A stretch of 64,000 bases of DNA from Beroe forskalii (Eukaryota; Ctenophora; Nuda; Beroida; Beroidae), in the NCBI GenBank assembly GCA_011033025.1, contig WFMF01000112.1:372001-436000 (forward strand), in the 5' to 3' direction. Shown in pieces: positions 407-48,518 of this stretch (the first letter of the stretch is position 1; the number at the start of each line of letters is the position of its first letter). The notes under the pieces were generated by a model. That model had not been told where the DNA came from and did not search any database. It worked only from the letters and a program-made list of their open reading frames with translations. The position numbers and the translations under genes are program-made.

Positions 407-3400
407 GTAACTAAAGTGGAGGAGCCATCACGGTACGGTGTGGTTGTGTACGAAGGCGACGGGAAAATAGACCGGTTTGTGGAGAAACCGTCCACCTTCG
501 TGTCCAACAAGATTAACGCTGGACTTTATCTCTTCAACACGACCATCCTGTCCAGGATTGAGTTGAGGGTTTGAAATGCAACATTTTCAGTGGAATAGAA
601 ATACTAGACATAATTTTCTCTGAGAGATAGTTTTACTTTGGATAGAAAATGTATTGTACTAACTTACTAATTATATGAAGAATTTGCATTTAACTGGCAC
701 TTGTTTTACCAGTCCGTCAGGCAGAAATGTCAAATTTTTAGATATACGGGCCAATAAAGTTATGACCTATGCTATAAAAGCGGTGTTTGCAGTTGAAACC
801 CACAAGTATCGAGAAGAAGGTATTTCCTGAGATGTGTGGAGACGGGGAACTCTTCGCAATGGAACTCCCTGGTAAGGACGAGTTTTAATAATTGGTTTAT
901 TTTATCTCTATGCAGATACATTAATTATAAACTCAATATATTTTATCAGCTATATTATTTTAATTTGTCATGTAAGGGGTAACTACATTATTTATAATGA
1001 TCGTACAGAATTTCGCCTGATTCCAGGATTGAAGCGATGGCAAGCATTAGCTTGAATTGTTGTTCTATGGCATAGTGTGTACTATAAATACAGTGTATTA
1101 AAATACAAAGTACAGTTTGCGTAATTATACACGTATTACATTGCTTGTTGAAATATAAAATTAGATAAATGATTATCAGAAATGAATACTGTGTTGACAA
1201 TATCAATACTTACTTATGATAGTCAAAGGTCAAGATGCATATCCTAGATCCTGAGCCTGATTAATTAACTTAAATTTATTGCCTAGCCGAACTCATTGGA
1301 TATCCTTGCCGTACGACATATTGAAAAGGAATTGAAAAGGAATTATTACAATTGTGGAAATATCCTAGGTTCTATCCCCCATTAAGTAGTTGAAAATAGG
1401 AAATGCTATTATTAACTTTCTTCTTTCCTCCTTATGGCATGTTGCAGGTTATTGGATGGATGTGGGACAGCCCAAGGATTTCGTGATAGGATCCAGTCTG
1501 TACCTGGATCACGTCTCAAAGACTAAGCCTGAGCTGCTCTGCAAACACGAATCTTGTGTCGGTGAGTTGAGCGGGATATTCTCATTGGTAGACTTCAGGA
1601 AAACTGGTTTTTCTATGTTTTGCTGTGACGTAGCTAGAGCAAGGATCGCCTTACGGTATAATCAATAACCTTTTACTTGTTATTACTGCAGCTACTGTGT
1701 CAAATGTTGGTTTATACATGTGTTTATACATGTGTGTTGGCATTTTGTGTATATTAATAATAACCTCAGCTCCTCAGTTTTCTTCGTCTAAATTGAGAAA
1801 TTTCTTCTCAATGCTGTCATATGATACTGTTAAAGTGTTAAGTTTGCCAGTGACCACTGTATTCTGCTACATTACAATAGTGCGGGCACATTAGGTTCAT
1901 TCTGCAGGTACATTAGACATTACTAAATCATGATGTATGCCTCCTTTCAGGACACGTGCTCGTTGACAAGTCGGCTGTTATTGGGAAGAATTGCCAGATC
2001 GGACCAAACGTGGTGATAGGACCAAACTGCGTCATCGAAGATGGTATGTTTTCAACCACTTCGCATTTTGCCATTTTGTGACAAATTGACGAAAAAGTGA
2101 CGTTTTTTGAGAGTGAATATTTCCGCAAAAGTGGAACAACAAAAGTGGAACAAATTGTTACAAAATGTAACCAAGCGTTTCTGTTCACCCACACATTCAG
2201 CTCTCAACGAAAAACACAACACACGAAAATCGTCCGGCTATCAATGTGATTCATTTTACAGCAGCCAACGATGTTACTGTATATCTAACTCATGGGACAG
2301 AAGGTTTGGCAAAATCCTTCTGACGGACCCGTCTCTGTTAGATATACAGCACCACCGATGATTCAACTTGAGAGTCTGAACGAGATTCTAGTGGAGGTAA
2401 ATTCGTGTTCGAGTGTAGGTATAAGTTGTATAGCTGGTCATCACTCATTCACTCGTCAAGGAAGATGTGGCAGCAGAATTTTCTAGGCGCTGGACATCAA
2501 TTTTTAATGTTAAGGAAGGCGTGGTTGGAGTAGGAGAGGCTGGTCATCGCCCAACAGGGAGGGAGTGGTAGAAGTAGGAGGGCTGGTCATCACTCGACAA
2601 GGAAGGCGTGGTAGGAGTCGGAAGGAATGACCATCACTCGTCAAGGAAGGCGTGGTAGGAGTAGGAGACTAGGAGGGGCTGGTCATCACTTGTCAAGGAA
2701 GGCGTGGAAGGAGTAGGAGAGGCTGGTCATCGCCCGACAGGGAGGGAGTGGTAGAAGTAGGAGGGCTGGTCATCACGGGACAAGGAAGGCGTGGTAGGAG
2801 TCGGAAGGAATGACCATCACTCGTCAAGGAAGGTGTGGTAGGAGTAGGAGGGGCTGGTCATCACTCGTCAAGGAAGGCGTGGTAGGAGTAGGAGACTAGG
2901 AGGGGCTGGTCATCACTTGTCAAGGAAGGCGTGGAAGGAGTAGGAGGGGCTGGTCATCACTCGTCAAGGAAGGCGTGGTAGGAGCAGCGGGGGCTGGTCA
3001 TCACTCGTCACGGAAGGCGTGGTAGGAGCAGGAGGGTCTGGTCATCACTCGTCAAGGAAGGCGTGGTAGGAGTAGGAGATGCTGGTCACCACTCGTCAGG
3101 GAAGGCGTGGTAGGAGTAGGATGGGCTGGTCATCACTCGTCAAGGAAGGCGTGGTAGGAGTAGGAGGGTCTGGTCATCACTCATCAAGGAAGGCGTTGTA
3201 GGAGTAGGAGGGCTGGTCATCACTCGTCAAGGATGGCGTTGTAGGAGAGGCTGGTCCTCAATCGTCAAGGAAGGCGTGGTAGGAGTAGAAGGGGCTGGTC
3301 ATCACTCATCACTCGTCAAGGATGTCGTGGTAGGAGTAGGAGACTAGGAGGGGCTGGTCATCACTCGTCAAGGAAGGCGTGGTAGGAGGGGCTGGTCCAC

Positions 3401-6161
3401 AATCGTCAAGGAAGGCGTGATAGGAGTAGGAGGGGCTGGTCATCTCTCGTCAAGGAAGGCGTGGTACATGTAGGAGGGGCTGGTCATCTCTCGTCAAGGA
3501 AGGCGTGGTAGGAGCAGGAGGTGCTGGTCACCACTCGTCCGGGAAGGCGTGGTAGGAGTAGGAGAGGCTGGTCATCACTCGTCAAGGAAGGCGTGGTAGA
3601 AGTAGGAGGGGCTGGTCATCACTCATCAAGGAAGGCGTTGTAGGAGTAGAAGGGGCTGGTCATCACTCGTCAAGGAAGGCGGGGTAGGAGTAGGAGCGGT
3701 CCACAAATGCAATGAATAATGACTCCACCCGGAAGGAGTCGGAAGGAATGACCATCACTCGTCAAGGAAGGTGTGGTAGGAGTAGGAGGGGCTGGTCATC
3801 ACTCGTCAAGGAAGGCGTGGTAGGAGTAGGAGACTAGGAGAGGCTGGTCTGACCAGCCTGGTCATCACTCGTCAAGGAAGGCGTGGTAGGAGTAGGAGGG
3901 GCTGGTCATCACTCGTCAAGGAAGGCGTGGTAGGAGTAGCGGGGGCTGGTCATCACTCGTCACGGAAGGCGTGGTAGGAGCAGGAGGGTCTGGTCATCAC
4001 TCGTCAAGGAAGGCGTGGTAGGAGTAGGAGATGCTGGTCACCACTCGTCAGGGAAGGCGTGGTAGGAGTAGGATGGGCTGGTCATCACTCGTCAAGGAAG
4101 GCGTGGTAGGAGTAGGAGGGTCTGGTCGTCACTCATCAAGGAAGGCGTTGTAGGAGTAGGAAGGCTGGTCATCACTCGTCAAGGAAGGCGTGATAGGAGT
4201 TGGAGGGGCTGGTCATCACTCGTCAAGGATGGCGTTGTAGGAGAGGCTGGTCCTCAATCGTCAAGGAAGGCGTGGTAGGAGTAGGAGGAGCTGGTCATCA
4301 CTCATCACTCGTCAAGGATGTCGTGGTAGGAGTAGGAGACTAGGAGAGGCTGGTCATCACTCGTCAAGGATGGCGTTGTAGGAGGGGCTGGTCCACAATC
4401 GTCAAGGAAGGCGTGATAGGAGTAGGAGGGGCTGGTCATCACTCGTCAAGGATGGCGTTGTAGGAGAGGCTGGTCCTCAATCGTCAAGGAAGGCGTGGTA
4501 GGAGTAGGAGGGGCTGGTCATCACTCATCACTCGTCAAGGATGTCGTGGTAGGAGTAGGAGGGGCTCGTCATCACTCGTCAAGGATGGCGTGGTAGGAGG
4601 GGCTGGTCCTCAATCGTCAAGGAAGACGTGGTAGGAGTAGCAGGGGCTGGTCATCACTCGTCAAGGAAGGCGTGGTACATGTAGGAGGGGCTGGTCATCT
4701 CTCGTCAAGGAAGGCGTGGTAGGAGCAGGAGGTGCTGGTCACCACTCGTCCGGGAAGGCGTGGTAGGAGTAGGAGGGGCTGGTCATCACTCGTCAAGGAA
4801 GGCGGGGTAGGAGTAGGAGCGGTCCACAAATGCAATGAATAATGACTCCACCCGCAATGGGGGCTTTATATATGTGTCTGTTGACACCCAATCAAACATG
4901 ACGAATGCGCGCATTCCACATTCCAGCCATATGACGTTGACACCATTCGTATGCTATGACGTATGACGTATTTTGATTCGTACGCATTCCACATTCCAGC
5001 GCTTATGACGTTGACACCATTCGTATGCTATGACGTATGACGTATTTTGATTCGTACGCATTCCACATTCCAGCGCTTATGACTTTGACACCATTCCTAT
5101 GAGCCTATGCTATGACATTGACGGTATAATTGTTACTGTGAGCTCGTAGGCCGAATAAAGAAGATGAATGGGAAGGTAAAAAGGGTCTGACAGAAGTTTT
5201 CAGAAGTATCTTGAATCTAGAAAGTAGAAACTTAATATCCAATTTTGCACGAAAACGCTGGTTGCATTGTGTGACAATTTGTTCCACTTGTGGCAAAACC
5301 GCAAAACACCATATGTTTTGAAAAACTTTGCGTCGGCCGCATTGCAAGGTTATTATAACGATTCTAACTTTTCATATTCAGTCAATACGCGCGCAACGCG
5401 CGCGCGCGCATTTGCATCCTGTATGTAGTGTGCAGAAATAATTACACGTGTTATTCATTGGACGTTTATCAACAACGTAATTACTAATTAGTAAATTAAT
5501 TAATAATTGAATTCCAAAACCCAAACATTACCTCAGGAGTGTGTTTGCAGAACTCAACGATCATGGCTGAAAGTAAGATCGGTTCGCACACGTGGATAAA
5601 CAACTCTATCGTAGGCTGGAAGTGTACCATCGGGAGATGGGTGAGTGGGTCTTGGTAAATTGGCATTGTTCTTGTGATGTCTTAATTTAATTCCCCTCCC
5701 AACTCGTCTTCGTGGCAAAAGCTGTCAACTGCTTTTATTCGCACCCGTATTTTCGCCCACTACAATTTTTATTCCAAAATTAATCACGAAATCTGGGGAA
5801 AATCCCCATATTTTCGAAGGCCGCAAAGTTAACTGTTTACATATGCCCCGTAAGGGATATGTATATGAACATTTGAGCAATGTTTCTATCTCCACTGCAG
5901 GTTCGTATGGAAGGTGTGAGCGTGTTAGGAGAAGATGTGACGATTAAAGATGAACTTTATATCAACGGTGGTAGGATCTTACCCCACAAAGAAATCGGTT
6001 CGTTCCGAGTCTTAGAATTTAAATGGTTGAATATATACTATTTCACTCAAAATTGGCTCCCGATTATCAGTTGTTTGATACCTGTTGATAAGAATCAAGG
6101 TTTGGATAATACTTCACTCATTTCAGGTGAGTCGGTGCCAAACCCAGCCATCATCATGTGA
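407..6161 (+). CDS. GMPPB: Mannose-1-phosphate guanylyltransferase beta (GDP-mannose pyrophosphorylase), 3' seven exons
   Basis: Cytosolic enzyme making GDP-mannose from mannose-1-phosphate and GTP for glycosylation. Exons: 407-568, 793-871, 1448-1561, 1951-2043, 5537-5640, 5901-5997 and 6127-6161 (TGA at 6159). All phases agree, giving 227 residues, about the C-terminal two thirds of a 360-residue family; the 5' exons lie left of the window. Recognisable segments are [38 protein letters not shown] and [11 protein letters not shown]. Hexapeptide turns of the left-handed beta-helix follow ([17 protein letters not shown]), then [16 protein letters not shown] and the family C-terminus [10 protein letters not shown]. 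At the first junction two residues appear to be added relative to vertebrates (IELRLKPTS), so the donor at 568 is the least certain boundary. The 3.5-kb fourth intron is mostly minisatellite. The last three exons are duplicated at 11956-12619. Confidence 0.95.
2500..4835. repeat. 44-bp minisatellite, about 50 copies, in GMPPB intron 4
   Basis: The unit is about 44 bp (core GGCTGGTCATCACTCGTCAA followed by GGAAGGCGTGGTAGGAGTAG). Units carry point changes and some are lengthened or shortened. Blocks of several units recur in the same order (for example near 2880 and 3800), indicating higher-order duplication inside the array. The flanking 2044-2500 shows no further exon. Confidence 0.95.
4857..5110. 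repeat. Tandem about 80-bp repeat of an interspersed family
   Basis: Three imperfect units contain TATGACGTTGACACCATTCG and GCATTCCACATTCCAG. A TATATA stretch and GTTGACACCCAATCAA precede them. Related sequence recurs at 37415-37640 and 48650-48780, so this is a dispersed family, not a purely local repeat. Confidence 0.75.
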
Positions 6162-9100
6162 GCTGACACCCCACGCACATATCAGATTACATTGGAGAAG
6201 TCCTGGAATTCTTCCTTCAAATCAGAAGTATCATGGCTTTTCTCTCTTGGATGAATATAAAAGTAGTACTCCCTAATTAAATAATTAATCATCAGTTATG
6301 TAATTAGGGTGTGAAGTAGGGTTGTATTTCATGAAGTATCCCTTGCCAGTTAGGCAGCTGTCATGACATAGAGAAACGAGGACCATTCCAATTCCACGTT
6401 TACCTGCGGTAGTTTCGGAATCGTTCTCTGATATCGTGAGGTGTATGTAACGTTCGTCGGTCGATCGAATGGAATTGGTCGATCGATCAACTTCATTTAA
6501 TAGACTGATTTGTTTTTAATAGAAAATCTTTAAGATAGTAGGGAAACAACTAAATATTGCTCATTTAAACACGATTCAAGTCAACAGGGACCATTAAAAA
6601 ACATCATTTGTTCAAATGGAGTTTATCGATCGACCAATTCCATTTGATCGACCGATGAACGTTGCGGGCGCCTGTCACCTCTGGCGAGAGTCTGTTGAAG
6701 ACAGGCTGGATACAGTAGTTACTAAGTTAGACTAGAATATGAAGTTTCAAATCAAAGTAAATTGTTGGATGTTTGATGTTCAAATGCACGTGATTTCTAA
6801 AATTGAATCTTCATGTTTATTATTATGGTTTCTAAATATCAGTACTCTAGCCCTGTGATATATGCAAATGTTATATTTTGGAGAATTTGCTCACTTAGAT
6901 TAAATATCTTTTGTTATGAACTAAGGCCTTAATTATGCCCACCGTTATATTGGTACTAATTTAATTTTTGAAACATCACATTGACTAGAGAAATAGCATG
7001 TTATCACGAGTAAATTTGAAAAAAATTGATTATAGTCACCAATTAATGATTACGTTATGCTTTGTCTTTGAAATTATGATTGAATTTTACGGTACCTGTT
7101 TTAGACAATCTTTCTTTTATTTTCAGTCTGTGATACCGTTAATTAATTGTACAGTTTAGATGTTAAATTCAGTTTTTACCATGTCATTGTGTTGATTGTG
7201 TGATGCTATAGAATATGGCTTTGGTTATTATAAATATACAGGCTGTCAAGCCCGCATATGGCATCCCCAAATTATAGAGATTAGGATATAGACATTGAAC
7301 GTACCTACATCTTAACATAAAGTGTGAAAATTTAAACATCAAATAAATCAGCGTGAATTTGAATTCTCACAAGCCCATCTGCCGTGTAGGTAGTGAATGT
7401 CTGGTCTCCTGGACCCCAGGGATGTGGCTGATGTGTGTGAGAGTGAAAGGGGCAGGGCGGAGGGACTGGTGAGGCAGTTCGAGGACAGATTCGGAGCTAA
7501 ACCGGACTTTCTTGTGAGGTAGGGGAACATATGTTATTGTTTGCATTCTGAGATGTTGAATGTCGCGTGGATAACGAGAGTGTTACAGTATTGAGTATAC
7601 CATGCTTTGGTTATGGAATTACGAATAAAACAAGGTCGATTGTTTGAAATAAGCATTCTCCTCGGTCTTCGGGCTTTCATTCTGGCCGTAGTTTTGCGAC
7701 TGGAATTGACTAAATTACCACACTGTTATTTATTTGAACATCCAAATCTAAAGCTGAAATCCCTTCAGAGCTCCAGGACGAGTGAATCTGATTGGGGAGC
7801 ATGTTGACTACTGTGGCTTTCCCGTGCTTCCCATCTCTATCAGACAGGTAATAGCTTAAAACTTTAAAAAGAAAGCACGGTTCTTTTGGTGGAACAAAAT
7901 GAGTTCTTTAATCTTTGGTTGAAATTACTGCCACATTTGTGAGTTGATGTAAAATACATAGGTACGCGCCTATTGGGTCAATTTTGGTATGCTCCCAAGA
8001 GATGTATCCGGTTTGGGTTCTTTAATTCATACCGTCCCCATTCCCATCCATATATTCTCCAGGACGTGATGATAGCGGGACGGAAGGACCCCGACACACG
8101 GGACATAACAATCACTAATTCCGATGATAAGTTCGAGGAGTTCTCCTGTCCAATAAGAAACATCCAGGTATGTGTACAATGTACATGACGCCGTTAGACT
8201 GGAATCAGAATGATTCTCATTTCTCGAGAAGCTACATTGTATCTAAGTATCAACTCGTTTCGACAGTATAATGTCGCGTTTCCAAAGTCTAAACCGTATT
8301 GATGCTGATATTTGTTGTTGGTTGCAGTTTCGATGAAACATACCGGCCAACATACAAAATCCGACCATTTTAGGGCTAAACGGCCCGCACTTTACTTGGA
8401 GTTTGGAAGCTGCAGTAAATCTGTCAATGAATTCCGACCACCGCTATATTACATCATCTTCAGGCCGTGTCTCAGTGTGTACAAAGTTAATTTGAAACTG
8501 GCAGATGTCAATTTAATCCACTCTACCCAATATACTTTGTGTCTTTGCATTTAACCGGGGATGGTGATATCATTTCACGCACAGATGACAGTCTGTAGAA
8601 AGTGACGTCGTAATCATGATTTAAGGTTGCCAATTGGTGACCTTGCATCGTCTGCTTTTATTCATGGCCTGGATTAATCGCCCGGGCAACTTTTAATTAA
8701 GGGATTTGTCAAATTGGTGGCTGTTAAAGGCCAAAATGGTTATCAAAATCAGGAAATTTTAATCCCGAAACTTTATTCGGGCACTGACCTTAACATCAAG
8801 AGTACATTCTACGTTGGATAAAACATTCCATTCTCAAATATAAAGCCTTATTCTCAAATTCAACACGTTTCATCAGTTTACGGAAGTAAAGTGGTACTGT
8901 ACGTGCTGGCTGATACCAGGCATTGCCGAGAATGAAACACTTTGGCACCAGGTAATAGTAAATTGATTGGTTCACCCTAAAGTGAACAAGAGGAATTATT
9001 CCAGTAGAGAATATAAGCGAAAATGAATAGAATTAAATCACAAGGATAAAGCAAAAGATTATGCCGTGACTAAATCAAACTTTGCCTTGTTTATTAAGCA

Positions 9101-9757
9101 GCCAAACTATACTGTTAATCTTGGTCAGACGGTGTATGAATAATGAACACTTTGGCACCAGGGTTGCAGGTTATGGTGGACGGTTCAGTACCCATGTCAG
9201 CCGGCCTATCCAGCTCCTCTGCTCTGGTTTGCGCGTCAGCCCTCCTAGCTGCCCTGTTCCTCAACGTATGTTATTACTGTGTTGGCATCTAATGTCAAAC
9301 ACAAGAAAATGTCTTTATTCTACGAAGCATATAAACACAATATTTGTCACAGTAGCCTGGTGAACTCAGTGAATGTCCATTGTCCTTGCTACTGAACGGC
9401 ATGAATTGAAACAAGTTTCTCCTTGCTCTCTTGGACCGACAGTATAAATTATAAAAAGTTTAGCTTGGAATCTTCCCATGGTTTAACTCCATCACTATCA
9501 GGATAACTCCCTGTCTCGGGAGAGAATAGCTGAGTTGTGTGCCGGATCAGAGAGATACGTGGGGACTCAGGGTGGCTAGGAAGGCTCTACCTTACGAGAC
9601 ATATTCAAACAGTACGACATTTGGAGATTTTTCGAAAAAATCCCCATATTTCGTTCTCCGCAGAATCTCAATATGACGTCATCATCTCCTGCTCATACCC
9701 CACCTCCTCACAGCTCACTAGCCTCCATTTACTACCCCTCTATCCCACCTCCCCAGG
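5308..9757. repeat. Segmental duplication, copy 1
   Basis: This block aligns from end to end with 11748-17543. Shared sequence starts at CACCATATGTTTTG (5308 and 11748) and ends inside GALK2 exon 7 (about 9757 and 17543). It holds the last three GMPPB exons and the first exons of GALK2. Copy 1 carries a MITE (6439-6673) that copy 2 lacks; copy 2 carries a Helitron array (13550-15042) that copy 1 lacks. Confidence 0.93.
6439..6673. mobile_element. MITE with long terminal inverted repeats
   Basis: A 235-bp element whose ends are about 50-bp imperfect inverted repeats (AACGTTCGTCGGTCGATCGA at the left; its complement with few changes at the right). Outer ends are AGGTG and CGCCT. No coding capacity. 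A close relative lies at 29534-29767. The duplicated segment lacks it near 12880, so insertion followed the duplication (or it was lost there). A clean target-site duplication is not obvious. Confidence 0.88.
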
Positions 9758-9780
9758 CCATCTTCCTTTTTTGAAATCCG
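7397..9780 (+). pseudogene. GALK2: GALK2 5' fragment, decayed duplicate
   Basis: This matches exons 1-6 of the intact gene at 15130. Exon 1 is 7397-7518 and exon 2 is 7769-7847, with the galactokinase motif [15 protein letters not shown]. Exon 3 is 8063-8167 and exon 5 is 9162-9265, with [10 protein letters not shown]. Exon 4 (8877-8951) is 75 nt against 79 in the intact copy and is shifted by several single-base gaps. Exon 6 (from about 9504) runs into TAG immediately after TQGG, so the GGGMDQ segment with the catalytic aspartate and its splice donor are missing. Only the first few bases of exon 7 remain before a satellite array begins. It cannot encode a kinase. Transcription from its own promoter copy is possible. 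Confidence 0.9.
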
Positions 9781-11565
9781 AGATATGACTTGAAATGCAA
9801 GGATATATTTTAATGCGTACAAATTTCGAAAAAGTCGATTTACTCAAAATTTCTCTTACCGATTTTCACCAAACTTTCAGGATATCTTGGGGCACATAAC
9901 TGAGTGTACTGTGTAAGTTTCAAAGAATTTTTGTGCCAAATCCGAGATATGACTTGAAACGCAAGGATATATTTTGAATGCGTACAAATTTCGAAAAAGT
10001 CGATTTACTCAAAATTTTTCTTACCGATTTTCACCAAACTTTCAGGATATCTTGGGGCACATAATTCGAGTGTACTGTGTAAGTTTCAAGGAATTTCTAT
10101 GTGTCAAATCCGAGATATGACTTGAAACGCAAGGATATATTTTGAATGCGTACAAATTTCGAAAAAGTCGATTTACTCAAAATTTCTCTTACCGATTTTC
10201 ACCAAACTTTCAGGATATCTTGGGGCACATAATTGAGTCTACTGTAAGTTTCAAGGAATTTATACCAAATCCGAAATATGACTTGAAACGCAAGGATATA
10301 TTTTGAATGCGTACAAATTTCGAAAAGTCGATTATTCTAAAATTTCTTACCGATTTTCACCAAACTTTCAGGATATCTTGGGGCACATAATTGAGTGTAC
10401 TGTGTAAGTTTCAAGGAATTTGTGTCAAAACAAGATATGACTTGAAACGCAAGGATATATTTTGAATGCGTACAAATTTCGAAAAAGTCGATTTACTCAA
10501 AATTTCTCTTACCGATTTTCACCAAACTTTCAGGATATCTTGGGGCACATAATTGGAGTCTACTGTGTAAGTTTCAAGGAATTTCTATGTACCAAATCCG
10601 AAATATGACTTGAAACGAAAGGATATATTTTGAATGCGTACAAATTTCGAAAAAGTCGATTTACTCAAAATTTCTCTTACCGATTTTCACCAAACTTTCA
10701 GGATATCTTGGGGCACATAACTGGAGTGTACTGTGTAAGTTTCAAGGAATTTCTATGTGCCAAATCCGAGATATGACTTGAAACGCAAGGATATATTTTG
10801 AATGCGTACAAATTTCGAAAAAGTCGATTTACTCAAAATTTCTCTTACCGATTTTCACCAAACTTTCAGGATATCTTGATTTTCACCAAACTTTCAGGAT
10901 ATCTTGGGCACATAACAGGTACTGTAAGTTTATGGCACATAATTGAAAGTCTACTGTGTAAGTTTTACAAAATTTCTCTTACCGGAATTTCTATGTACCA
11001 AATCCGAAATATGACTTGAAACGCAAGGATATATTTTGAATGCGTACAAATTTCGAAAAAGTCGATTTACTCAAAATTTCTCTTACCGATTTTCACCAAA
11101 CTTTCAGGATATCTTGGGGCACATAATTGGAGTGTACTGTGTAAGTTTCAAGGAATTTCTATGTGCCAAATCCGAGATATGACTTGAAACACAAGGATAT
11201 ATTTTGAATGCGTACAAATTTCGAAAAAGTCGATTTACTCAAAATTTCTCTTACCGATTTTCACCAAACTTTCAGGATATCTTGGGGCACATAATTTGAG
11301 TGTACTGTGTAAGTTTCAAGGAATTTCTATGTGCCAAATCCGAGATATGTTTTGAAACGCAAGGATATATTTTGAATGCGTACAAATTTCGAAAAAGTCG
11401 ATTTACTCAAAATTTCTCTTACCGATTTTCACCAAACTTTCAGGATATCTTGGGGCACATAATTGGAGTGTACTGTGTAAGTTTCAAGGAATTTCTATGT
11501 GCCAAATCGACTTTTTCGAAATTTGAACGCATTCAAAATATATCCTTGCGTTTCAAGTCATTTCT
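9770..11565. repeat. 166-bp satellite array ending in an inverted half unit
   Basis: About ten head-to-tail units of roughly 160-170 bp contain GATATGACTTGAAACGCAAG, CGAAAAAGTCGATTTACTC and CACCAAACTTTCAGGATATC. The unit near 10860-10990 is rearranged. The array ends with the same sequence in reverse orientation (11508-11565), giving a long potential hairpin with the preceding unit. Open frames across it are by-products of the repeat. From 11566 to 11747 is unremarkable AT-rich DNA. Confidence 0.93.
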
Positions 11566-11955
11566 CGAGTGTGTCACCCGAAAGCTTGCTAATGGGTTCC
11601 AATTATCGGCCTCATATAATCCTTTTAATTTGGTCCGATTTCATCACATAAACTTCAAAATACAACAACATTAACTTCAAAGTTTTTTTGGAAGATCACA
11701 AATATCGCTGTTCATTGCGTACAATTTTGGGAAAAGTCCTACTGAACACCATATGTTTTGAAAACTTTGCGTCGGCCGCATTGCAAGGTCATCATAACGA
11801 CTCTAACTTTTCATATTCAGTCAATACGCGCGCAGCGCGCGCATTTGCATCCTGTATGTAGTGTGCAGAAATAATTACACGTGTTATTCATTGGATGTTT
11901 ATCAACAACGTGATTAGTAAATTAATTTAATCCCAAAACCCAAACATCGCCTCAG

Positions 11956-12619
11956 GAGTTTGTTTGCAGAACTCAACGATAATGGCTGAAAGTAAGATCG
12001 GTTCGCACACGTGGATTAACAACTCCATTGTGGGTTGGAAATGTACCATCGGGAGATGGGTAAGTGGGTCTTGGTAAATTGACATTGTTCTTGTGATGTC
12101 TTGACACTTAAATTTAATTCTCCTTCCAATTCTTCTTTGTGGCAAAAGCTATCAACTGCTTTTGTTCGCACCCGTATTTTCGAACGAATAAAATTTTGCC
12201 CACTACAATTTTTATCCCAAAATTAATCACGAAATCTGGGGAAAATCCCCATATTTTCGAAGGCCGCAATAGTTAACCGTTTACATATCCCCCGTAAAGG
12301 ATATGTATATGGACATTTGAGCAATGTTCTTTATCTCCACTGCAGGTTCGTATGGAAGGTGTTAGCGTGTTAGGAGAAGATGTGACGATTAAAGATGAAC
12401 TTTACATCAACGGTGGTAGGATCTTACCCCACAAAGAAATCGGTTCGTTCCGAGTCTCAGAATTCAGTTGTTTGACAAAAATGATTGAATATATACTATT
12501 TCACTCAACATTGGCTCCCGATTATCAGTTGCTTGATACCTGTTGATAAGAATCAAAGTTTGGATAATACTTCACTCATTTCAGGTGAGTCGGTGCCAAA
12601 CCCAGCCATCATCATGTGA
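11956..12619 (+). pseudogene. GMPPB: GMPPB 3' fragment (last three exons duplicated)
   Basis: Exons 11956-12059, 12346-12442 and 12585-12619 have exactly the same lengths (104, 97 and 35 nt), phases and splice sites as the last three exons at 5537-6161. The frame stays open to TGA at 12617. Differences are mostly silent. Without upstream exons it cannot make the enzyme. If transcripts from GMPPB read through, these exons could serve as alternative terminal exons, but nothing in the sequence shows that. It is best explained as the leftover of a tandem duplication with a breakpoint inside GMPPB. Confidence 0.9.
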
Positions 12620-13549
12620 GCTGACACCCCACGCACATATCAGATTACATTGGAGAAGTCCTGGAATTCTTCCTTCAAATCAGAAGTATCATGGCTTTTC
12701 TCTCTTGGATAAATATGAAAGTAGTATCACCTAATTAATCATCAGTTATGTAATTAGGGTGTAAGGTAGGGTTGTATTTCATGAAGTATCCCTTGCCAGT
12801 TTGGAATCTGTCGTGACATCGAGAAACGAGAACCATTCCAATTCCACGGACGTTTGGAATCGTTCTCTGATGTTGTGACACCCTTGTTTAGGCATATTGG
12901 CGAGAGTCTGTTGGACACAGGCTGGATACAGTAGTTACTAAGTTAGACTAGAATCTTAAGTTTTAAATCAAAGTTAATTGTTGGATGTTCGCTAATTTGA
13001 TGCACGTGATTTCTAAAATTGAACTTTCATGTTCATTGATTATGGTTTCTTAATATCAGTACTGTAGCCCTGTGGATATGCAAATGAAGCCTGTTAAGTT
13101 GTTATAGTTAGGAGATCTTGCACACTAAGATTAAATAAGTTTTGTTATGAACTAAGGCCCACCGTTATATTGGTACTAATTTAATTTTTGAAGCATCACA
13201 TTGACTAGAGAAATAGCATGCCATTTCGAATAAATTTGAAAAAATTGATTAGTCACCGATTAACGATTATACGTTATGCTTAGCCTTTGAAATTATGATT
13301 GAATTTAACGGTACCTGTTTTAGACAATCTTTCTTTTAATTTCAGTCTGTGATACCGTTAATTAATTGTACAGTTTAGATGTTAAATTCAGTTTTTACCA
13401 TGTCATTGTGTTGATTGTGTGATACAATACAATACAATACAATGCTATCGAATATAAAGCTTAAGTTATTTTAAATCTGCAGGCCTTCAAGCCCGCATAT
13501 GGCATCCCGAAATATAGGAGATAAGGATATGATAGACATCGAACGTATA

Positions 13550-15042
13550 TCTCTTATATAATTTCGCAACCTCTGTTGTTTGTCGTAACGGCGGAAACAT
13601 CTTCGGAACGCGCGCGCATTACGATTTGTGCGGGTAACCATGGTGACACGTGCACGGAGAATTGCGCGCGCGCTCATTTCTGTTAATGGTGTTTTGATTA
13701 CGTTGCTTCGTAACTTTTGAATGGATCAGAGTTTTTTGATGCGGTAAAAAGTATTCAGCTGATCTGAAATTTGCGAACGAGGTGCTGCGTAGCAGCGCCG
13801 AGTGAGCTGTGTATTAGCAGGCCCAACGGGCATTCTAGTCTTACTTATAATTTCGTGCTTTCTGTATGTTTTCTGTACGTCACGCCCCATGGCAACGCGC
13901 GCGCAATGGGGGAAATGCACGTGCAGATTAATTGCGCGCGCGTTCATTTCTGTTTAATGCTGTTTTAATTTCGGAGCTTCGTAACTTTTGATATGATTTG
14001 AATTTTTTGATGCAGTAAAAAGTATTAAGTTGATTTGCATTGTGTGGTTTGAAATTTTCGAACGAGGTGCTGCGTAGCAGCGCCGAGTGAGCTGTGTATT
14101 TGCAGGCCCAACGGGCCTGCTAGTCTCTAATATAATTTGCCATTCTCTGTCGCGTTTTTCGTCCTTTTGTGGACTGTCACGTTTTTAGTCCTTTTGTGGA
14201 CACATTTTAGGGCGTGCGCGTGCAGAATGGATATAGGCGCGCGCGTTGCTATGGTTACATATTGCGCGCGCGTTCATTTCATTTTCTGTTTAATGATGTT
14301 TTGAATACGTTGCTCCGCGTAACTTTTGAGCGGATTGGAATTTTTTGATGCGATAAAAAGTATTTAGTTGATTTGAAATTTGCAAACGAGGTGCTGCGTA
14401 GCAGTGCCGAGTGAGCTGTATATTTGCAGGCCCCATGGGCCTGCTAATCTTACTTATAAAGTCGCAGATTGTGTTTTTTCTTTGTACGTCACGCCCCATG
14501 GCAACGAGCGCGAAATGGGGAAATTGCACGTGCAGATTAACTGCGCGAGTGATCAAATCGGTTTAATGCTGTTTTGATTTCGGAGATTCGTAACTTTTGA
14601 TATGACTGGAATTTTTTGATGCGGTAATTTTTTTTAATCAATTTGAATTTTGTGGTTTGAAATTTGCGAACGAGGTGCTGCGTAGCAGCGCCGAGTGAGC
14701 TGTGAATTTGCAGGCCCAACGGGCCTGCTAGTCTCTAATATAATTTCGCAACCTCTGTATTATTATTATGTACTCCGTCACGTTTTTAGTCCTTTTGTAG
14801 ACACATTTTGAAGCGTGCACGTGCAATTTTGGTATATGCGCGCGCGTTGCTATGGTTTCATATTGAGCGCGCGCGTTCATTTCTGTTCAATGCTGTTTTG
14901 AATACGTTGCTTCGTAACTTTTGAACTGATTGGAATTTTTTGATGCGGTAAAAAGTATTCAGTTGATTGGAATTTTGCGAACGAGGTGCTGCGTAGCAGC
15001 GCCGATTGAGCTGTGTATTAGCAGGCCTAACGGGCCTGCTAG
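13550..15042 (+). mobile_element. Head-to-tail array of five Helitron-like units
   Basis: Units: 13550-13838, 13839-14123, 14124-14447, 14448-14731 and 14732-15042. Each begins TCT and ends with a hairpin (GCAGGCCC, short loop, GGGCCTGC) running into CTAG (CTAA in unit 3). A second hairpin, GTGCTGCGTAGCAGCGCC, lies about 45 bp before the end. The array sits between host A (13549) and T (15043). The duplicated segment has the uninterrupted site at 7309/7310 (CTACA, then TCTTAACATAAAG). These are the marks of Helitrons: 5' TC, 3' hairpin plus CTRR, A/T target, no target duplication. Units 1, 3, 5 and units 2, 4 form two subtypes. No Rep/helicase is encoded, so the elements are non-autonomous. 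Confidence 0.85.
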
Positions 15043-15129
15043 TCTTAACATAAAGTGTGAAAATTTAAACATCAAATAAATCAGCGTGAATTTGAATTCT
15101 CACAAGCAAATCTGCTGTGTAGGTAGTGA

Positions 15130-18100
15130 ATGTCTAGTCTCCTGGACCCCAGGGATGTGGCTGATGTGTGTGAGAGTGAAAGGGGCAGGGCGGAGGGACT
15201 GGTGAGGCAGTTCGAGGACAGATTCGGAGCTAAACCGGACTTTCTTGTGAGGTAGGGGAACATATTATGTTATTGTTTGCATTCTGAGATGTTGAATGTC
15301 GCGTGGATAACGAGAGTGTTACAGTATACCATGCTTTGGTTATGGAATTAGGAATAAAACAAGGTCGATTGTTTGAAATAAGCATTCTCCTCGGTCTTCG
15401 AGCTTTCATTCTGGCCGTAGTTTTGCGACTGGAATTGACTAAATTACCACACTATTATTTATTTGAACATCCAAATATAAGCTGAAATCCTTTCAGAGCC
15501 CCAGGACGAGTGAATCTGATCGGGGAACATGTTGACTACTGTGGCTTTCCCGTCCTTCCCATCTCTATCAGACAGGTAATAGCTTAAAACTTTAAAAGGA
15601 AAGCACGGTTCTTTTGGTGGAAGAAAATGAGTTCTTTAATCTTTGGTTGAAATTACTGCCACATTTGTGAGTTGATGTTAAATACATAGGTACGCGCCTA
15701 TTGGGTCAATTTTGGTATGCTCCCAAGAGATGTATCCGGTTTGGAGTTTTGAATGACATGTGTCCATGTACTATATCAATAGGCACTGAAAACCTCAGTG
15801 GGTTCTTTAATTCATACCGTCCCCATTCCCATCCATATATTCTCCAGGACGTGATGATAGCGGGACGGAAGGACCCCGACACACGGGACATAACCATCAC
15901 TAATTCCGATGATAAGTTCGAGGAGTTTTCCTGTCCAATAAGGAACATCCAGGTATGTGTACAATGTACATGACGCCGTTAGACTGGAATCAGAATGATT
16001 CTCATTTCTCGAGAAGCTACATTGTATCAAAGTATCAACTCGTTTCGACAGTATAATGTCGCGTTTCCAAAGTCTAAACCGTACCTATTGATGCTGATAT
16101 TTGTTGCTGGTTGCAGTTTTGATGAAACATACAGGCCCACATACAAAATCCGACCATTTTAGGGCTAAACGGCCCGCACTTTACTTTGGAGTTTGGAGGC
16201 TGCGGTAAATCTGTCAATGAATTCCGACCACCGCTATATTACATCATCTTCAGACTGTGTCTCAGTGTGTACAAAGTGAATTTGAAACTGGCAGATGTCA
16301 ATTTAATCTACTCAACAGACTATACTTTGTGTCTTTGCATTTGACCCGGGATGGTGATATCATTTAGCGTACAGATGACAGTCTGTTAAAAGTGACGTCG
16401 TTATCATGATTTAAGGTTGCCAATTGGTGACCTTGCATCGTCTGCTTTTATTCATGGCCTGCATTAATCGCCTGAGCAACTTTTAATTAAGGGATTTGTC
16501 AAATTGGTGGCTGTTAGTCTAAAATGGTTATCATTATCAGGAAATTTTAATCCCGAAACTTTACTCGGGCACTGACCTTAACATCTAGAGTATACATTCT
16601 ACGTTGGATAAAACATTCCATTCCTCAAATATGCCCAGTCCTCAAATCTCACAACACGTTTCAACAGTTTACGGAAGTAAAGTGGTACTCGTACGTGCTG
16701 GCTGGATACCAGGGCATTGCCGAGAGAATGAACACTTTGGCACCAGGTAATAGCAAATTGATTGGTTCACCCAAGAGTGAATTATTCCAGTAGAGAATAT
16801 AAGCGAAAATGAATAAAATTAAATCAAAAGGATAAAGCAAAAGATTATGCCGTGACTAAATCAAACTTTGCCTTGTCTAAGCAGCCAAACTATACTGTTA
16901 AACTTGGTCGGACGGTGTATGAATAATGAATATCTGTGTGTCAGGGTTGCAGGTTATGGTGGACGGTTCAGTACCGATGTCAGCCGGCCTATCCAGCTCC
17001 TCTGCCCTGGTTTGCGCGTCAGCCCTCCTAGCTGCCCTCTTCCTTAACGTAAGTCATTACTGTGTTGGCATCTAATGTCAAACAAAATGTCTTTATTCTA
17101 CGAAGCATATAAACACAAACTTTGGTGAACTCAGTGAATGTCCATTGTTCTAGCTACTGAACGGCATGAATTGAAACAAGTTTCTCCTTGCTCTCTTGGA
17201 CCGACAGTATAAATTATGAAAAGTTTAGCTTGGAATCTTCCCATGGTTTAACTCCATCACTATCAGGATACCTCCCTGTCTCGCGAGAGAATAGCTGAGT
17301 TGTGTGCCAGATCGGAGAGATACGTGGGGACCCAGGGTGGCGGCATGGACCAGGTACGTACTACCTTACGAGACGCATTCAAACAGTACGACATTTGGAG
17401 ATTTTTCGAAAAAATCCCCATTTTTCGTTCTCCGCAGAATCTCAATATGACGTCATCATCTCCTGCTCATACTCCACCTCCTCAAAGCTCACTAGCCTCC
17501 ATTTAAACTAGCTCCCCCACTCTTATCCCACCTCCCTCCAGGCGATATCATTCCTTGGTGTGTCCGGCAAAGCCCAGCTGATAAACTTCAACCCTGTCCG
17601 GTGCGAGCCCGTCACCCTTCCTGACTGCGCTACCTTCGTGGTGGCTAACTGTATGGTCAACAAGTGGAAAGCTGACGGAACGGACTTCAACAACAGGGTC
17701 GCTGAGTGCAAGCTCGGAGCTAGGGTAGGTGACCAGGGTGCTTGATTCTAAGTTGTGGAGTCCAGAGTCTTATTTATTTTGTTTTCGGTTCCGGATTTGA
17801 TTGGTTTAAGAAGAGAACATGGTTCATAGATTCCTAGGGGCCAGCATATTTTATTATTTTTTAACTGCTCAATTGACAAAAAATTACCCTGACTTCCTCC
17901 CTTCCCTGGATCAAAGAAATGCGATTAATTCAACTTAAGGTTAACTCAATTGCCCCTCCTGCAGGTTTTGGCAGTAAAGCTGGGTGTGGCCTCATGGCGT
18001 GACCACATCAAGACATACCACGATCTCATGACAGCTCAGGGCATGGAACCGGGCTCACTGCTAGCTGCTGTCAAGGAGCACATCCACCGGGAACACTACA

Positions 18101-21100
18101 CTCAGGAGGAAATCATGGTGAGTTGGAATTAATCGTGTTTTCAACTGCTTTCCTTATTTTTGTTTATTAATTACTTAATTGATAATCATTGTACTTTTAC
18201 TGAAATGAAATGTACTTGTATAATGTACTTGTATAATGTATATCTTTTATCAAATTAAAAATTTCAAATGAAGAAGGTTGACATATTTTCAGGAAATATT
18301 GGAATGTTCTAAAGACGAGTTTGCTGAGATTGTGGGAAAGAGCGATAACGAAGTCTTCCGACTTTATGATAGGTTAGAGAGACTGGAGTAGTGTCAGAGA
18401 CTAAAGAGTGGTGTCAGCAACTATAGGGTGGTGTCAGCAACTATAGAGTGGTGTCAGCAGCTATAGAGTGGTGTCAGTAACTATAGGGTGGTGTCAGCAA
18501 CTATAGAGTGGTGTCAGCACCTATAGGGTGGTGTCAGCAACTATAGAGTGGTGTCAGCAACTATAGGGTGGTGTCAGCAACCATAGAGTGGTGTCAGCAA
18601 CTATAGAGTGGTGTCAACAACTATAGAGTGGTGTCAGCAACTATAGGGTGGTGTCAGCAACTATAGGGTGGTGTCAGCACCTATAGGGTGGTGTCAGCAA
18701 CTATAGAGTGGTGTCAGCAACTATAGAGTGGTGTCAGCAACTATAGAGTGGTGTCATCAACTATAGAGTGGTGTCAGCAACCATAGGGTGGTGTCAGCAA
18801 CTATAAAGTGGTGTCAGTAACTATAGGGTGGTGTCAGCAACTATAGAGCGGTGTCAGCAACTATATAATGGTGTCAGCAACCATAGGGTGGTGTCAGCAA
18901 CTATAGAGTGGTGTCAGCAACTATAGAGTGGTGTCAGCATCTATAGGGTGGTGTCAGCAACTATAGGGTGGTGTCAGCAACTATAGAGTGGTGTCAGCAA
19001 CTATAGAGTGGTGTCAGCAACTATAGGGTGGTGTCAGCAACTATAGAGTGGTGTCAGCAACTATAGAGTGGTGTCAGCATCTATAGAGTGGTGTCAGCAA
19101 CTATAGGGTGGTGTCAGCAACTATAGTGGTGTCAGCAACTATAGGGTGGTGTCAACAACTATAGAGTGGTGTCAGCAACTATAGGGCGGTGTCAACAACT
19201 ATGGAGTGGTGTCAGCAACTATAGGGTGGTGTCAGCAACTATAGAGTGGTGTCAGTAACTATAGGGTGGTGTCAGCAACTATAGGGTGGTGTCAACAACT
19301 AGAGTGGTTTCAGCAACTATAGGGTGGTGTCAACAACTATAGAGTGGTGTCAGCATCTATAGGGTGGTGTCAGCAACTATAGAGTGGTTTCAGCAACTAT
19401 AGAGTGGTGTCAGAAGCTATAGGGTGGTGTCGGAGACTAAAGAGTGGTGTCAGCAACTATAGGGTGGTGTCAGCAACTATAGAGTGGTGTCAGCAACTTT
19501 AGAGTGGTGTCAGCAACTATAGAATGGTGTCAGCAACTATAGAGTGGTGTCAGCAACTATAGGATGGTGTCAGCAACTATAGAGTGGTTTCAGCAACTAT
19601 AGGGTGGTGTCAGCAACTATAGGGTGGTGTCAGCAACTATAGAGTGGTGTCAGCAACTATAGAGTGGTGTCAGTAACTATAGGGTGGTGTCAGTAACCAT
19701 AGGGTGGTGTCAGCAACTATAGGGTGGTGTCAGCAACTATAGAGTGGTGTCAGCAACTATAGGGTGGTGTCAACAACTATAGAGTGGTGTCAGCAACTAT
19801 AGGGCGGTGTCAACAACTATGGAGTGGTGTCAGCAACTATAGGGTGGTGTCAGCAACTATAGGGTGGTGTCAGCAACTATAGAGTGGTGTCAGTAACTAT
19901 AGGGTGGTGTCAGCAACTATAAAGTGGTGTCAGCAACTATAGGGTGGTGTCAGCAACTATAGAGTGGTGTCAGCAACTATAGGGTGGTGTCAGCAACTAT
20001 AGGGTGGTGTCAGCACCTATAGAGTGGTGTCAGCAACTATAGGGTGGTGTCAGCAACTATAGGGTGGTGTCAGCAACCATAGGGTGGTGTCAGCAACTAT
20101 AGAGTGGTGTCAGCAACTATAGGGTGGTGTCAGCAACTATAGAGTGGTGTCAGCAACTGTAGAGTGGTGTCAGCAACCATAGGGTGGTGTCAGCACCTAT
20201 AGAGTGGTGTCAGCAACTATAGAGTGGTGTCAGCAGCTATAGGGTGGTGTCAGCAACTATAGGGTGGTGTCAGCAATTATAGAGTGGTGTCAGTAACTAT
20301 AGGGTGGTGTCAGCAACTATAGGGTGGTGTCAGCAACTATAGAGTGGTGTCTGCAACTATAGAATGGTGTCAGCATCTATAGGGTGGTGTCAGCAACTAT
20401 AGAGTGGTGTCAGCAACTATAGGGTGGTGTCAGCAACTATAGGGTGGTGTCAACAACTATAGAGTGGTGTCAGCAAATATAGGGTGGTGTCAACAACTAT
20501 AGAGTGGTGTCAGCAACTATAGGGTGGTGTCAGCAACTATAGAGTGGTGTCAGCAACTATAGAGTGGTGTCAGCAACTATAGAGTGGTGTCAGCAACTAT
20601 AGAGTGGTGTCAGCACCTATAGAGTGGTGTCAGCAACTATAGAGTGGTGTCAGCAGCTATAGGGTGGTGTCAGCAACTATAGGGTGGTGTCAGCAACTAT
20701 AGGGTGGTGTCAGCAACTATAGAGTGGTGTCAGCAACTATAGAGTGGTGTCAGCAACTATAGAGTGGTGTCAGCAACTATAGGGTGGTGTCAGCAACTAT
20801 AGGGTGGTGTCAGCAACTATAGAGTGGTGTCAGTAACTATAGGGTGGTGTCAGCAACTATAGAGTGGTGTCAGCAACTATAGGGTGGTGTCAGCAACTAT
20901 AGGGTGGTGTCAGCAACTATAGGGTGGTGTCAGCAACTATAGAGTGGTGTCAGCAACTATAGGGTGGTGTCAGCAACTATAGAGTGGTGTCAGCAACTAT
21001 AGGGTGGTGTCAACAACTATAGAGTGGTGTCAGCAACTATAGGGTGGTGTCAACAACTATAGAGTGGTGTCAGCAACTATAGGGTGGTGTCAGCAACTAT

Positions 21101-22346
21101 AGAGTGGTGTCAGCAACTATAGAGTGGTGTCAGTAACTATAGGGTGGTGTCAGCAACCATAGGGTGGTGTCAGCAACTATAGAGTGGTGTCAGCAACTAT
21201 AGGGTGGTGTCAGCAACTATAGAGTGGTGTCAGCAACTATAGAGTGGTGTCAGCAACTATAGAGTGGTGTCAGTAACTATGGAGTGGTTTTAGACACTGA
21301 AGCCTCTTCAGTGTCCGACTCCACATCACTCCCAGCCTCCTTGACATCGCTGCACTTATATCACTGTGACACCGCTCTGTCCCAACACTGTAACACTATC
21401 TTACTACCTCAAAAATCTTGGATATTTTTATTTCATTTCGACATTACCTTCCTCCTTCATACCACTCTAAGCAGTATGAAGGCTTAGTTATGTAAATTGT
21501 AAGTTTTTTTTAGAGAAATCCATCTTATCTGAGTGTCTCCTTCACTTCAGAGCATTGCATATAACCGGGGAGGCTACAAGAGTAGCACGATTCAAAGATA
21601 TCTGTGACCAAGACACACCAGATGTTCAGGAGCTAGGACGGCTTATCAACGAGTCACACATGAGTCTGAAAGACAAGTACAACGTCAGCATCAAGGAACT
21701 GGATGATCTTACCCAGGTGCTTCGCAAAGAATATTGTTAAAACGTACATTCTGTTTAAGAGATTAATTTGCTACAAATGTCAAACAATAATTGATTGGAT
21801 ATATACTTCATTCCTTAGAAAAGTTTTAACTGTAGTTTTTGCATTTGATAAGAACCTGTTTCCTGCTTTCTATTTTCTCTGATAGTACCTTACTATATCT
21901 GAGTACAACCCAGATGAATCTCTCAACTTCTCATTGAACATGCTCTTTCAATCAGATTTGTAGGGACGCTGGTGCACTCGGTTCTAGGCTGGTTGGCGCT
22001 GGGTTCGGGGGTTGCACTATCTCTATGGTTCTCAAGAAAGACGTGAGTAAATTGAAAGCCTTTAAAAATCTGTAAATTTTTGCCGACAATTTTACATTGA
22101 TATTATATTCAAGTCCAATGCAATCATAAGGAGTGAATTCATCGGTCCAATGCTTTGACATTCACATTGCTACATTGGCCCATGTTTTCCTACCCTTTGT
22201 TACAGGTGGAATCCTTCACCAATACGGTATGGCGTGAGTACTACAAGCCCCGGGAGATCTCTCTCCCTGAAGCAACCAAGAAACACCTCTTTGTGTCCTC
22301 CCCTTGCCAAGGCGCCTGTGTCTTGAACATTCCTCACGTGTCTTGA
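15130..22346 (+). CDS. GALK2: N-acetylgalactosamine kinase (GHMP family), complete
   Basis: Cytosolic kinase forming GalNAc-1-phosphate from GalNAc and ATP. Twelve exons: 15130-15251, 15497-15575, 15848-15952, 16668-16746, 16945-17048, 17267-17353, 17542-17724, 17965-18117, 18293-18372, 21551-21716, 21956-22042, 22206-22346. Phases agree throughout and give 461 residues, close to the 458 of human GALK2. Motifs: [12 protein letters not shown] (residues 44-55), the ATP-loop [14 protein letters not shown] (139-152), GGGMDQ with the probable catalytic Asp191, and [13 protein letters not shown] (395-407). The GalNAc-kinase assignment over galactokinase rests on overall similarity to GALK2. The intron after exon 9 holds a 2.9-kb minisatellite starting within about 20 bp of the donor. 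The stop codon lies inside the second unit of another minisatellite. Confidence 0.95.
18380..21290. repeat. 20-bp minisatellite, about 145 copies, in GALK2 intron 9
   Basis: Almost perfectly 20-bp periodic. The unit is GTGTCAGCAACTATAGAGTG, with A/G at one position (AGAGTG or AGGGTG) and occasional CAGTAAC, CAACAAC or CACCTAT variants. It starts just after the exon 9 donor (18372/18373). The variants are mixed, not blocked, which suggests repeated unequal exchange. No spacers, so it is not a CRISPR-like array. Confidence 0.97.
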
Positions 22347-48086: not shown

Positions 48087-48518
48087 CTAGCAGGCCCGTT
48101 CGGCGCTGCTACGCACCATCACACCCGCAAATTAATGAAAAACTTTTTTAAAGCATTGAAAAATTCGAATCAGAACTAAAGTTGTTGAGTGGAGTAGCGT
48201 ATCAAAACCAACAAAGCAAGAAATGAAATTCACACACTATACATGTTACCATAGCAACGCAAGCATTTCCCACTATCTGCACGTGCATGCCGACACAAAC
48301 CCATACTCACATCGACACAGTGCCCATACACACGGTTTTCCCATTCTAATCTATGATGCCGACACAATGGCCCATACACACGCCGACACAAAATCCACAC
48401 ACACGCCGACACAGTGTCCATACACACGGTTTTCCCATTCTAATCTATGATGCCGACACAATAATCCACACACACGCCGACACAAAATCCATACACACTT
48501 ACCAAATTATAATTAAGA
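48087..48518 (-). mobile_element. Helitron-like element (minus orientation)
   Basis: Read on the minus strand it starts TCTTAATTATAATTTGG at 48518, after host A, and ends AACGGGCCTGCTAG at 48087, before host T. It belongs to the 13550-15042 family, although most of its interior is a short repeat (ACACACGCCGACACA and CATACACACGGTTTTCCC). The paralogous site near 62635 lacks it. Confidence 0.8.

Follow-up and report, generated by a model that had tools for sequence, protein, structure and literature searches.

Arrays of short Helitrons in the genome of the ctenophore Beroe forskalii appear to have grown mainly by serial insertion at the 5' ends of resident copies, a reading to which a probability of roughly 70% is given. 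Under this reading the transposase would strongly prefer the site directly before the first T of a resident copy, a newcomer would be added head to tail in front of the resident, and the array would grow unit by unit – the attraction would come from the transposase recognising the 5' end of its own element or nicking the DNA at that end. Sequence comparison establishes the ends of the elements, their targets between A and T (written A/T below, the slash marking the point of insertion), a motif common to these targets and to the elements' own 5' ends, and neighbours with, as it seems, mostly separate histories. Tandem Helitrons have been taken as evidence of rolling-circle read-through or of circular concatemers; if most junctions go back to separate insertions, an array junction does not by itself prove that a concatemeric intermediate existed, and the family would show how rows resembling satellites can start from dispersed elements. 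The choice of targets by Helitrons would also become testable, with a stated motif and with the element's own 5' end as the predicted best target.

The window array and its empty site

The window is a stretch of 64,000 nucleotides, and its features are collected in the table. A sequence-only reading had proposed five tandem units lying between an A and a T, with an exact empty site in the same window. Unit coordinates read from the sequence and a direct-repeat search agree on the same five head-to-tail copies, 284–324 bp long; the array is preceded by A and followed by T, as proposed. The further proposal that every unit runs from TC to a hairpin and CTAG stands for the TC in all five units, but not for the CTAG of U3, whose CTAA is still within CTRR (the other four units end in CTAG), nor for the hairpin of U1, whose 3' end is GCAGGCCCAACGGGCATTCTAG. 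The calculated energy of the 3' hairpin is −10.1 to −10.6 kcal/mol in U2–U5 and −3.3 kcal/mol in U1.

Table. Features of the Helitron family in the window (positions are those of the window)
Feature	Position	Strand	Description
U1	13550-13838	+	alpha-type; TC start, CTAG end, terminal hairpin broken (GCAGGCCC/GGGCATTC)
U2	13839-14123	+	beta-type; hairpin intact; CTAG end
U3	14124-14447	+	gamma-type; hairpin intact; CTAA end
U4	14448-14731	+	beta-type; hairpin intact; CTAG end; 13.4% from U2
U5	14732-15042	+	gamma-type; hairpin intact; CTAG end; 16.1% from U3
Right target flank TCTTAACATAAAG	15043-15055	+	ATA at +8
Empty A/T target site in the segmental duplicate	7309..7310	.	uninterrupted duplicate sequence
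Segmental duplicate without the array	5305-9761	+	matches 11745-17546 in four blocks, 83-96% identity
Second family array	59017-60014	-	beta 59743-60014, beta 59496-59742, delta 59017-59495; A before, T after

The filled site reads ...GTATA/TCTC...CTAG/TCTTAACATAAAG..., while the duplicate runs through unbroken as ...CTACA/TCTTAACATAAAG..., which confirms the empty site. The aligned flanks of the two duplicates are 3.2% different on the right (1,283 columns; 7310–8600 against 15043–16400) and 12.6% different on the left (652 columns, 134 gap columns; 6600–7309 against 12820–13549), an inequality perhaps due to local gene conversion. Taken alone, the window site is also compatible with a 3-base TCT target duplication, since the unit and the right flank both start with TCT; this was rejected on the wider sample, where C does not follow T in 50 of the 100 right flanks listed of the 920 described below. 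A cut-and-paste element was rejected as well, the two ends as read from the sequence not being inverted copies of one another, and so was a duplicated beta-gamma dimer (609-base spacing), U2/U4 and U3/U5 being 13–16% apart. An Rfam search of the window gave no match at gathering scores. The minus strand at 48100–48290 carries the decayed remnant of another family unit, with 68% identity to U5.

The family, its ends and its targets

The genome searched comprises 216 Mb in 1,134 contigs. The 3' ends are not a matter of chance, as a 57-base 3' end gave 1,018 matches with at most 3 mismatches and its reversed control none. The family's 19-base 3' end has at least 920 matches, the 20-base 5' end of the alpha and gamma subfamilies at least 274, and an alpha-specific 38-mer 332 with at most 3 mismatches. 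The end-pattern searches (the 920 and 274 above, and the 40 alpha ends, 173 and 3 given below) bar G at one flanking position, so their counts are lower bounds, and flank statistics come from the matches listed, about 100 per search, on low-numbered contigs. Loci fetched from the genome, skewed toward arrays and toward the first contigs, yielded 101 distinct complete units in three groups: 19 alpha units resembling U1, 48 beta units resembling U2 and U4, and 34 gamma units resembling U3 and U5. Longer relatives of about 480–780 bp with the same kind of ends form a fourth type, delta. The subfamilies are mixed within the arrays of these loci, and the last ~110 bases are identical in the beta and gamma consensus and nearly so in alpha. 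Overlapping loci (L001, L010, L011, L017, L022, L025, L029, L033, L035 and L038, also L065 and L066) were left out, unit statistics were taken without the RepHel loci L039–L062, and L063 and L064 were left out of the junction comparison and of the test of hairpin against stacking.

A T directly follows the 3' CTAG in all 100 of the matches listed of the 920 (CTAG being part of the search pattern), in 40 of 40 alpha ends with a broken stem arm, and in 99 of the 100 listed of the 173 ends with the alternative stem GAAGGCCC/GGGCCTTC, where one flank starts otherwise. Of 100 listed 5' ends out of 274, 64 come directly after ...TAG, and on reading all of these preceding sequences except one resemble a unit end; each of the other 36 is preceded by A. 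In the fetched loci an A stands before 18 of the 25 starts not called internal; the other seven were read as lying behind decayed unit ends or as shifted starts. The units thus begin with TC after A, as Helitron1 elements do, and end in CTRR before T with no target duplication, U3 ending in CTAA; they differ from Helentrons and their HINE derivatives, which insert at TT and have no TC or CTRR. No target duplications or other ends, which would have spoken against the family's identity, appear among the flanks listed, save the single flank without T. Together with RepHel loci that carry a like 3' hairpin, these features support the assignment of the units to the Helitrons as non-autonomous members.

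The targets share a positioned motif. Among 92 external right flanks, defined as those not starting with TC (41 from the search with the 19-base 3' end, where 8 of 49 were dropped because they probably derive from 5' ends of the family itself, and 51 from the GAAGGCCC/GGGCCTTC search), 84 have ATA starting at +6 to +9, compared with 10.3% of the A/T sites in the window and 20.5% in an AT-rich background. The longer ATAA is found in 62 of the 92, as against 3.5% of window A/T sites. On a score over positions +3 to +13, the 5' ends of the elements themselves fall in the top 1.8–7.2% of A/T sites, and real targets have a median rank of 3.4%; the empty site of the window is a middling target at 11.7%, with ~12% of A/T sites its equal. 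Under a strict pattern, the 5' end of another element directly follows 41 of the 100 3' ends listed. Extrapolation from the window gives about 3.7 million A/T sites with the ATA motif in the genome, and the excess of stacking over such sites is ~1,300- to 260-fold for an assumed 2,000 to 10,000 resident 5' ends. The motif is therefore far too common to explain the preference, which suggests that binding to the resident 5' end, or a nick there, draws the newcomer. On the minus strand of contig C303 (282815–282849) a unit starts right after the opening seven bases of a second unit, as from an insertion a few bases inside a resident 5' end.

In its TC...CTAG ends, its insertion between A and T without target duplication and the Rep and PIF1-type helicase of its candidate partner, the family resembles the animal Helitron1 represented by Helraiser/Helibat1. 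A preference for AT-rich DNA, strongest next to the 3' end of the transposon, is also known from Helraiser, in the part of its description consulted (PMC4778049); the positioned ATA is sharper than the AT-richness described there. Like HINE/DINE-1, which are non-autonomous Helentrons, the units are short and non-autonomous, presumably move by rolling circle and carry a palindrome at the 3' end; HINE/DINE-1 differ in their insertion at TT, their subterminal inverted repeats and their want of TC and CTRR, according to the section of PMC4067079 concerned with them.

A candidate autonomous partner was found among 20 genome matches to the Helitron_like_N domain. One of them belongs to a RepHel element of 9,770 bp on contig C802 (1503828–1513597), which begins A/TCTTACTTATAATTTCGCAG, like a beta unit, and ends CTAGAAGGCCCAACGGGCCTTCTAG/TCTAGCTATAATA. 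It has Pfam Rep and PIF1 domains, an HUH motif and a two-tyrosine motif, and its Rep-bearing part matches the solved Helraiser chain 7lcc_A with an E value of 2.7e-163. The frame stops after 1,160 codons, within what we take to be the helicase from the usual layout of the family, while that of a copy on contig C256 has 1,340 open codons. Helentron RepHel proteins carry an added endonuclease domain, which Pfam did not find in the C802 frames; as the frame stops early, a later domain could be missed. The C256 copy has the C802 hairpin but for one loop base, followed by TATAGTATATAATA, and on contig C244 the hairpin follows Rep, in the same orientation, at a distance of about 4.1 kb. With 173 such ends in 432 Mb of strand, 0.002 would be expected within 5 kb of a given place. 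In all, the hairpin lies downstream of Rep at three of six related RepHel loci (on C802, C256 and C244); it is absent among the matches listed from the C199 locus and the second C256 copy, and the 3' side of the second C802 copy fell outside the reading. Matching 5' ends 4.3–4.8 kb before Rep belong to the two C802 copies only: one was read through to Rep, and the other, a divergent copy, has a similar 5' end at 4.3 kb, its middle lying outside the stretch read. These two copies (in L076, C802:1502200–1507200, and in L040 and L042) have divergent orientations, with 5' ends ~1.3 kb apart and Rep regions 89% alike. Loci L047 and L050–L054 were read within 1.5 kb of the match.

An autonomous partner with identical termini had been suggested as something to look for. 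It can be recognized by its 3' hairpin at three loci, and the 5' end is probably shared with the short units as well, judging from C802. In appearance, a short unit combines the 5' region of the autonomous element (its first few hundred bases) with the 3' hairpin, and the units presumably are moved by the RepHel enzyme. The RepHel families of L059–L062 were rejected as partners, there being no matching 3' end in 10 kb of each. That of L059 (C1099:10500–20499) is another family, with a frame of more than 2,600 codons and Rep, PIF1, DUF6570 and Ulp1-type protease domains.

How the arrays arose

Tandem Helitrons of bat and silkworm are thought to be due to bypass of the terminator (PMC4067079), those of plants and bats have been taken as a sign of rolling-circle replication (PMC5876387), and others are known from Drosophila, rice and maize (PMC5148889). 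The Beroe arrays are like these in being head-to-tail with direct junctions (PMC4067079, PMC5148889, PMC5876387). They are unlike them in that those arrays are ascribed, in the passages cited, to terminator bypass or circles, while the mixed and separately related units of Beroe point to serial insertion. Closer parallels come from fungi: three tandem copies in Metarhizium have been read as two insertions into a 5' end or as rolling-circle replication of a circle, and in Fusarium a FoHeli4 copy sits 2 bp before the 5' end of a second one (PMC5148889). As presented in that source these are single cases with non-canonical ends, whereas the Beroe family offers hundreds of junctions. In those parts of the open-licence literature on tandem, nested or self-inserting Helitrons that were consulted, no analysis of many junctions separating serial insertion from read-through was found. 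What is new here is a family in which both readings can be compared on many junctions, with a positioned target motif and a spacerless hairpin.

In the usual explanation (PMC4067079, PMC5876387, in the portions consulted), the 3' terminator is bypassed, a circular intermediate forms and all units are inserted in one event; the sequence-only reading had likewise put forward repeated read-through of the terminator. The broken terminator hairpin of U1 would fit this, as would an adjacent gamma pair in L069 only 4.4% apart and an alpha pair in L072 at 3.1%. One circle should, however, give identical units. The window array is made of three subfamilies in the order alpha-beta-gamma-beta-gamma, not of one unit five times; its same-type units are as far apart as the table gives, and neighbours among 55 abutting junctions in the fetched loci are largely not closest relatives, the signs of a common history being weak there. 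A read-through concatemer is accordingly improbable. The other option of that reading, insertion into a preferred end, is favoured by the mixed subfamilies, the separate histories, the ATA motif and the 41 stacked ends per 100 listed.

The divergence of same-type units in the window exceeds that of either duplicate flank; with the left flank at 12.6%, this timing argument is supportive, not decisive. At the 55 junctions, same-type neighbours differ on average by 9.0% in beta (n=12) and 8.4% in gamma (n=15), slightly closer than units of different arrays (10.2% and 10.7%). Like junctions were compared with each other in 263 pairings: left units below 5% were combined with right units above 7% in 28 of them, the reverse was found in 6, and both were below 5% in 2. 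This asymmetry is to be read with the caveat that units recur from one comparison to another and that alpha-beta junctions weigh heavily in it. Once alpha is set aside, nearest-relative distances favour neither side (left younger in 19 of 41, right younger in 21 of 41). Left and right divergence are correlated at 0.18, a value equalled in 29 of 300 shuffles with a mean of 0.08. This correlation and the slightly closer same-type neighbours make some co-movement likely. Nine young alphas, 1.4–6.5% apart, mostly stand before betas that are about as unlike as other betas. Over 11 alpha-beta pairs the alphas average 7.1% apart and the beta followers 9.1%, with other betas at 10.4%; some followers are closer to one another (in L002, L004, L013 and both of L070), so part of the alpha-beta pairs may have moved together.

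Such joint movement is the core of a second alternative, in which a ready-made mixed array, or part of one, was copied from elsewhere, the copying having started at the 5' end of the first unit and read through as far as a later terminator. Helraiser is able to bypass its own 3' end, as its description states in the part concerned (PMC4778049), and L002 has the type order of the window array; an alpha-beta pair is common to L002 and L004 (4.8% and 2.9%), and positions 619–2256 of L070 repeat an alpha-beta-beta block whose first two units are 2.4% and 2.2% apart, likely through joint movement or block duplication. For the pentamer as a whole, joint movement was rejected, because its identities to L002 are uneven by unit (95, 90, 80, 78 and 88%). 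The best listed genome match over the full 1,493 bases is 84% (40 of 1,864 candidates scored), and where left units are closely related, the units to their right are mostly distant. The window array is thus unlikely to have arrived ready-made, although older events of this kind may lie behind U2–U5.

A third alternative would have single insertions followed by unequal crossing-over or gene conversion between residents, which enlarged the arrays. The near-identical last ~110 bases of beta, gamma and alpha make recombination possible, and the repeated block in L070 could be its product; but adjacent same-type units are barely more alike than those of different arrays, and crossing-over alone does not yield mixed arrays at A/T sites in otherwise unrelated flanks. 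It is very improbable as the main source of the arrays. Under serial insertion, most junctions are likely to be single insertions before residents, with some joint movement or block duplication besides.

The 3' hairpin and the alpha subfamily

Canonical Helitrons have a palindrome about 11 nt from the 3' end (PMC4067079, PMC4778049, in the sections that treat it), of 16–20 nt in Helitron1. The stem is present in the Beroe family, 16–22 nt long, and what sets it apart is its position, ending 0–3 nt before the 3' end, where the palindrome of Helraiser stands 11 nt before it (PMC4778049). The form GCAGGCCC/GGGCCTGC is that of the beta and gamma consensus, its 3' arm lying within the 920 matches, and the form GAAGGCCC/GGGCCTTC has at least 173; the mixed form GCAGGCCC/GGGCCTTC has 3, again a lower bound. 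Two common paired forms and a rare mixed one show that pairing has been kept through paired changes, as would be expected of a working terminator. Loss of the hairpin in Helraiser lowered transposition without abolishing it and raised bypass, according to the passage on this mutant (PMC4778049).

Alpha ends with the broken arm GGGCATTC are followed by TC in 39 of 40 cases and by a recognisable 5' end in 36 of 40. After intact hairpins TC is less frequent, at 50 of 100 listed ends for one form and 48 of 100 for the other (p = 1e-8 and 4e-9 against alpha). Under a loose pattern, every one of the 21 alpha ends in the fetched loci is directly followed by a 5' end (one case, in L021, being doubtful), and the stem is broken in 18 of these 21; of the 86 beta and gamma units, 19 have a broken stem and 67 are stacked. 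A broken hairpin and stacking showed no link over 107 non-focal units, the focal matches being left out (odds ratio 0.85, p = 1), so the alpha pattern is not attributable to the hairpin alone. A neighbour's 5' end acting as substitute terminator for alpha would fit these counts, with hairpin and subfamily confounded and with three stacked alphas that have intact stems. A bolder proposal, offered tentatively and with the odds against it, joins two ideas: that the specificity for insertion targets is the specificity for nicking the element's own 5' end, so that a resident 5' end would be the best target in the genome and the arrays would record it, and that alpha would have specialised, having lost its own 3' terminator hairpin and being released and integrated only beside another element's 5' end as substitute terminator. 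If this is true, alpha would be a parasite of other Helitrons' front ends.

The window also holds three tandem repeats: about 145 copies of a 20-base unit at 18386–21288, about 51 copies of a 44-base unit at 2512–4818, and a repeat with a unit of about 168 bases at 9774–11508.
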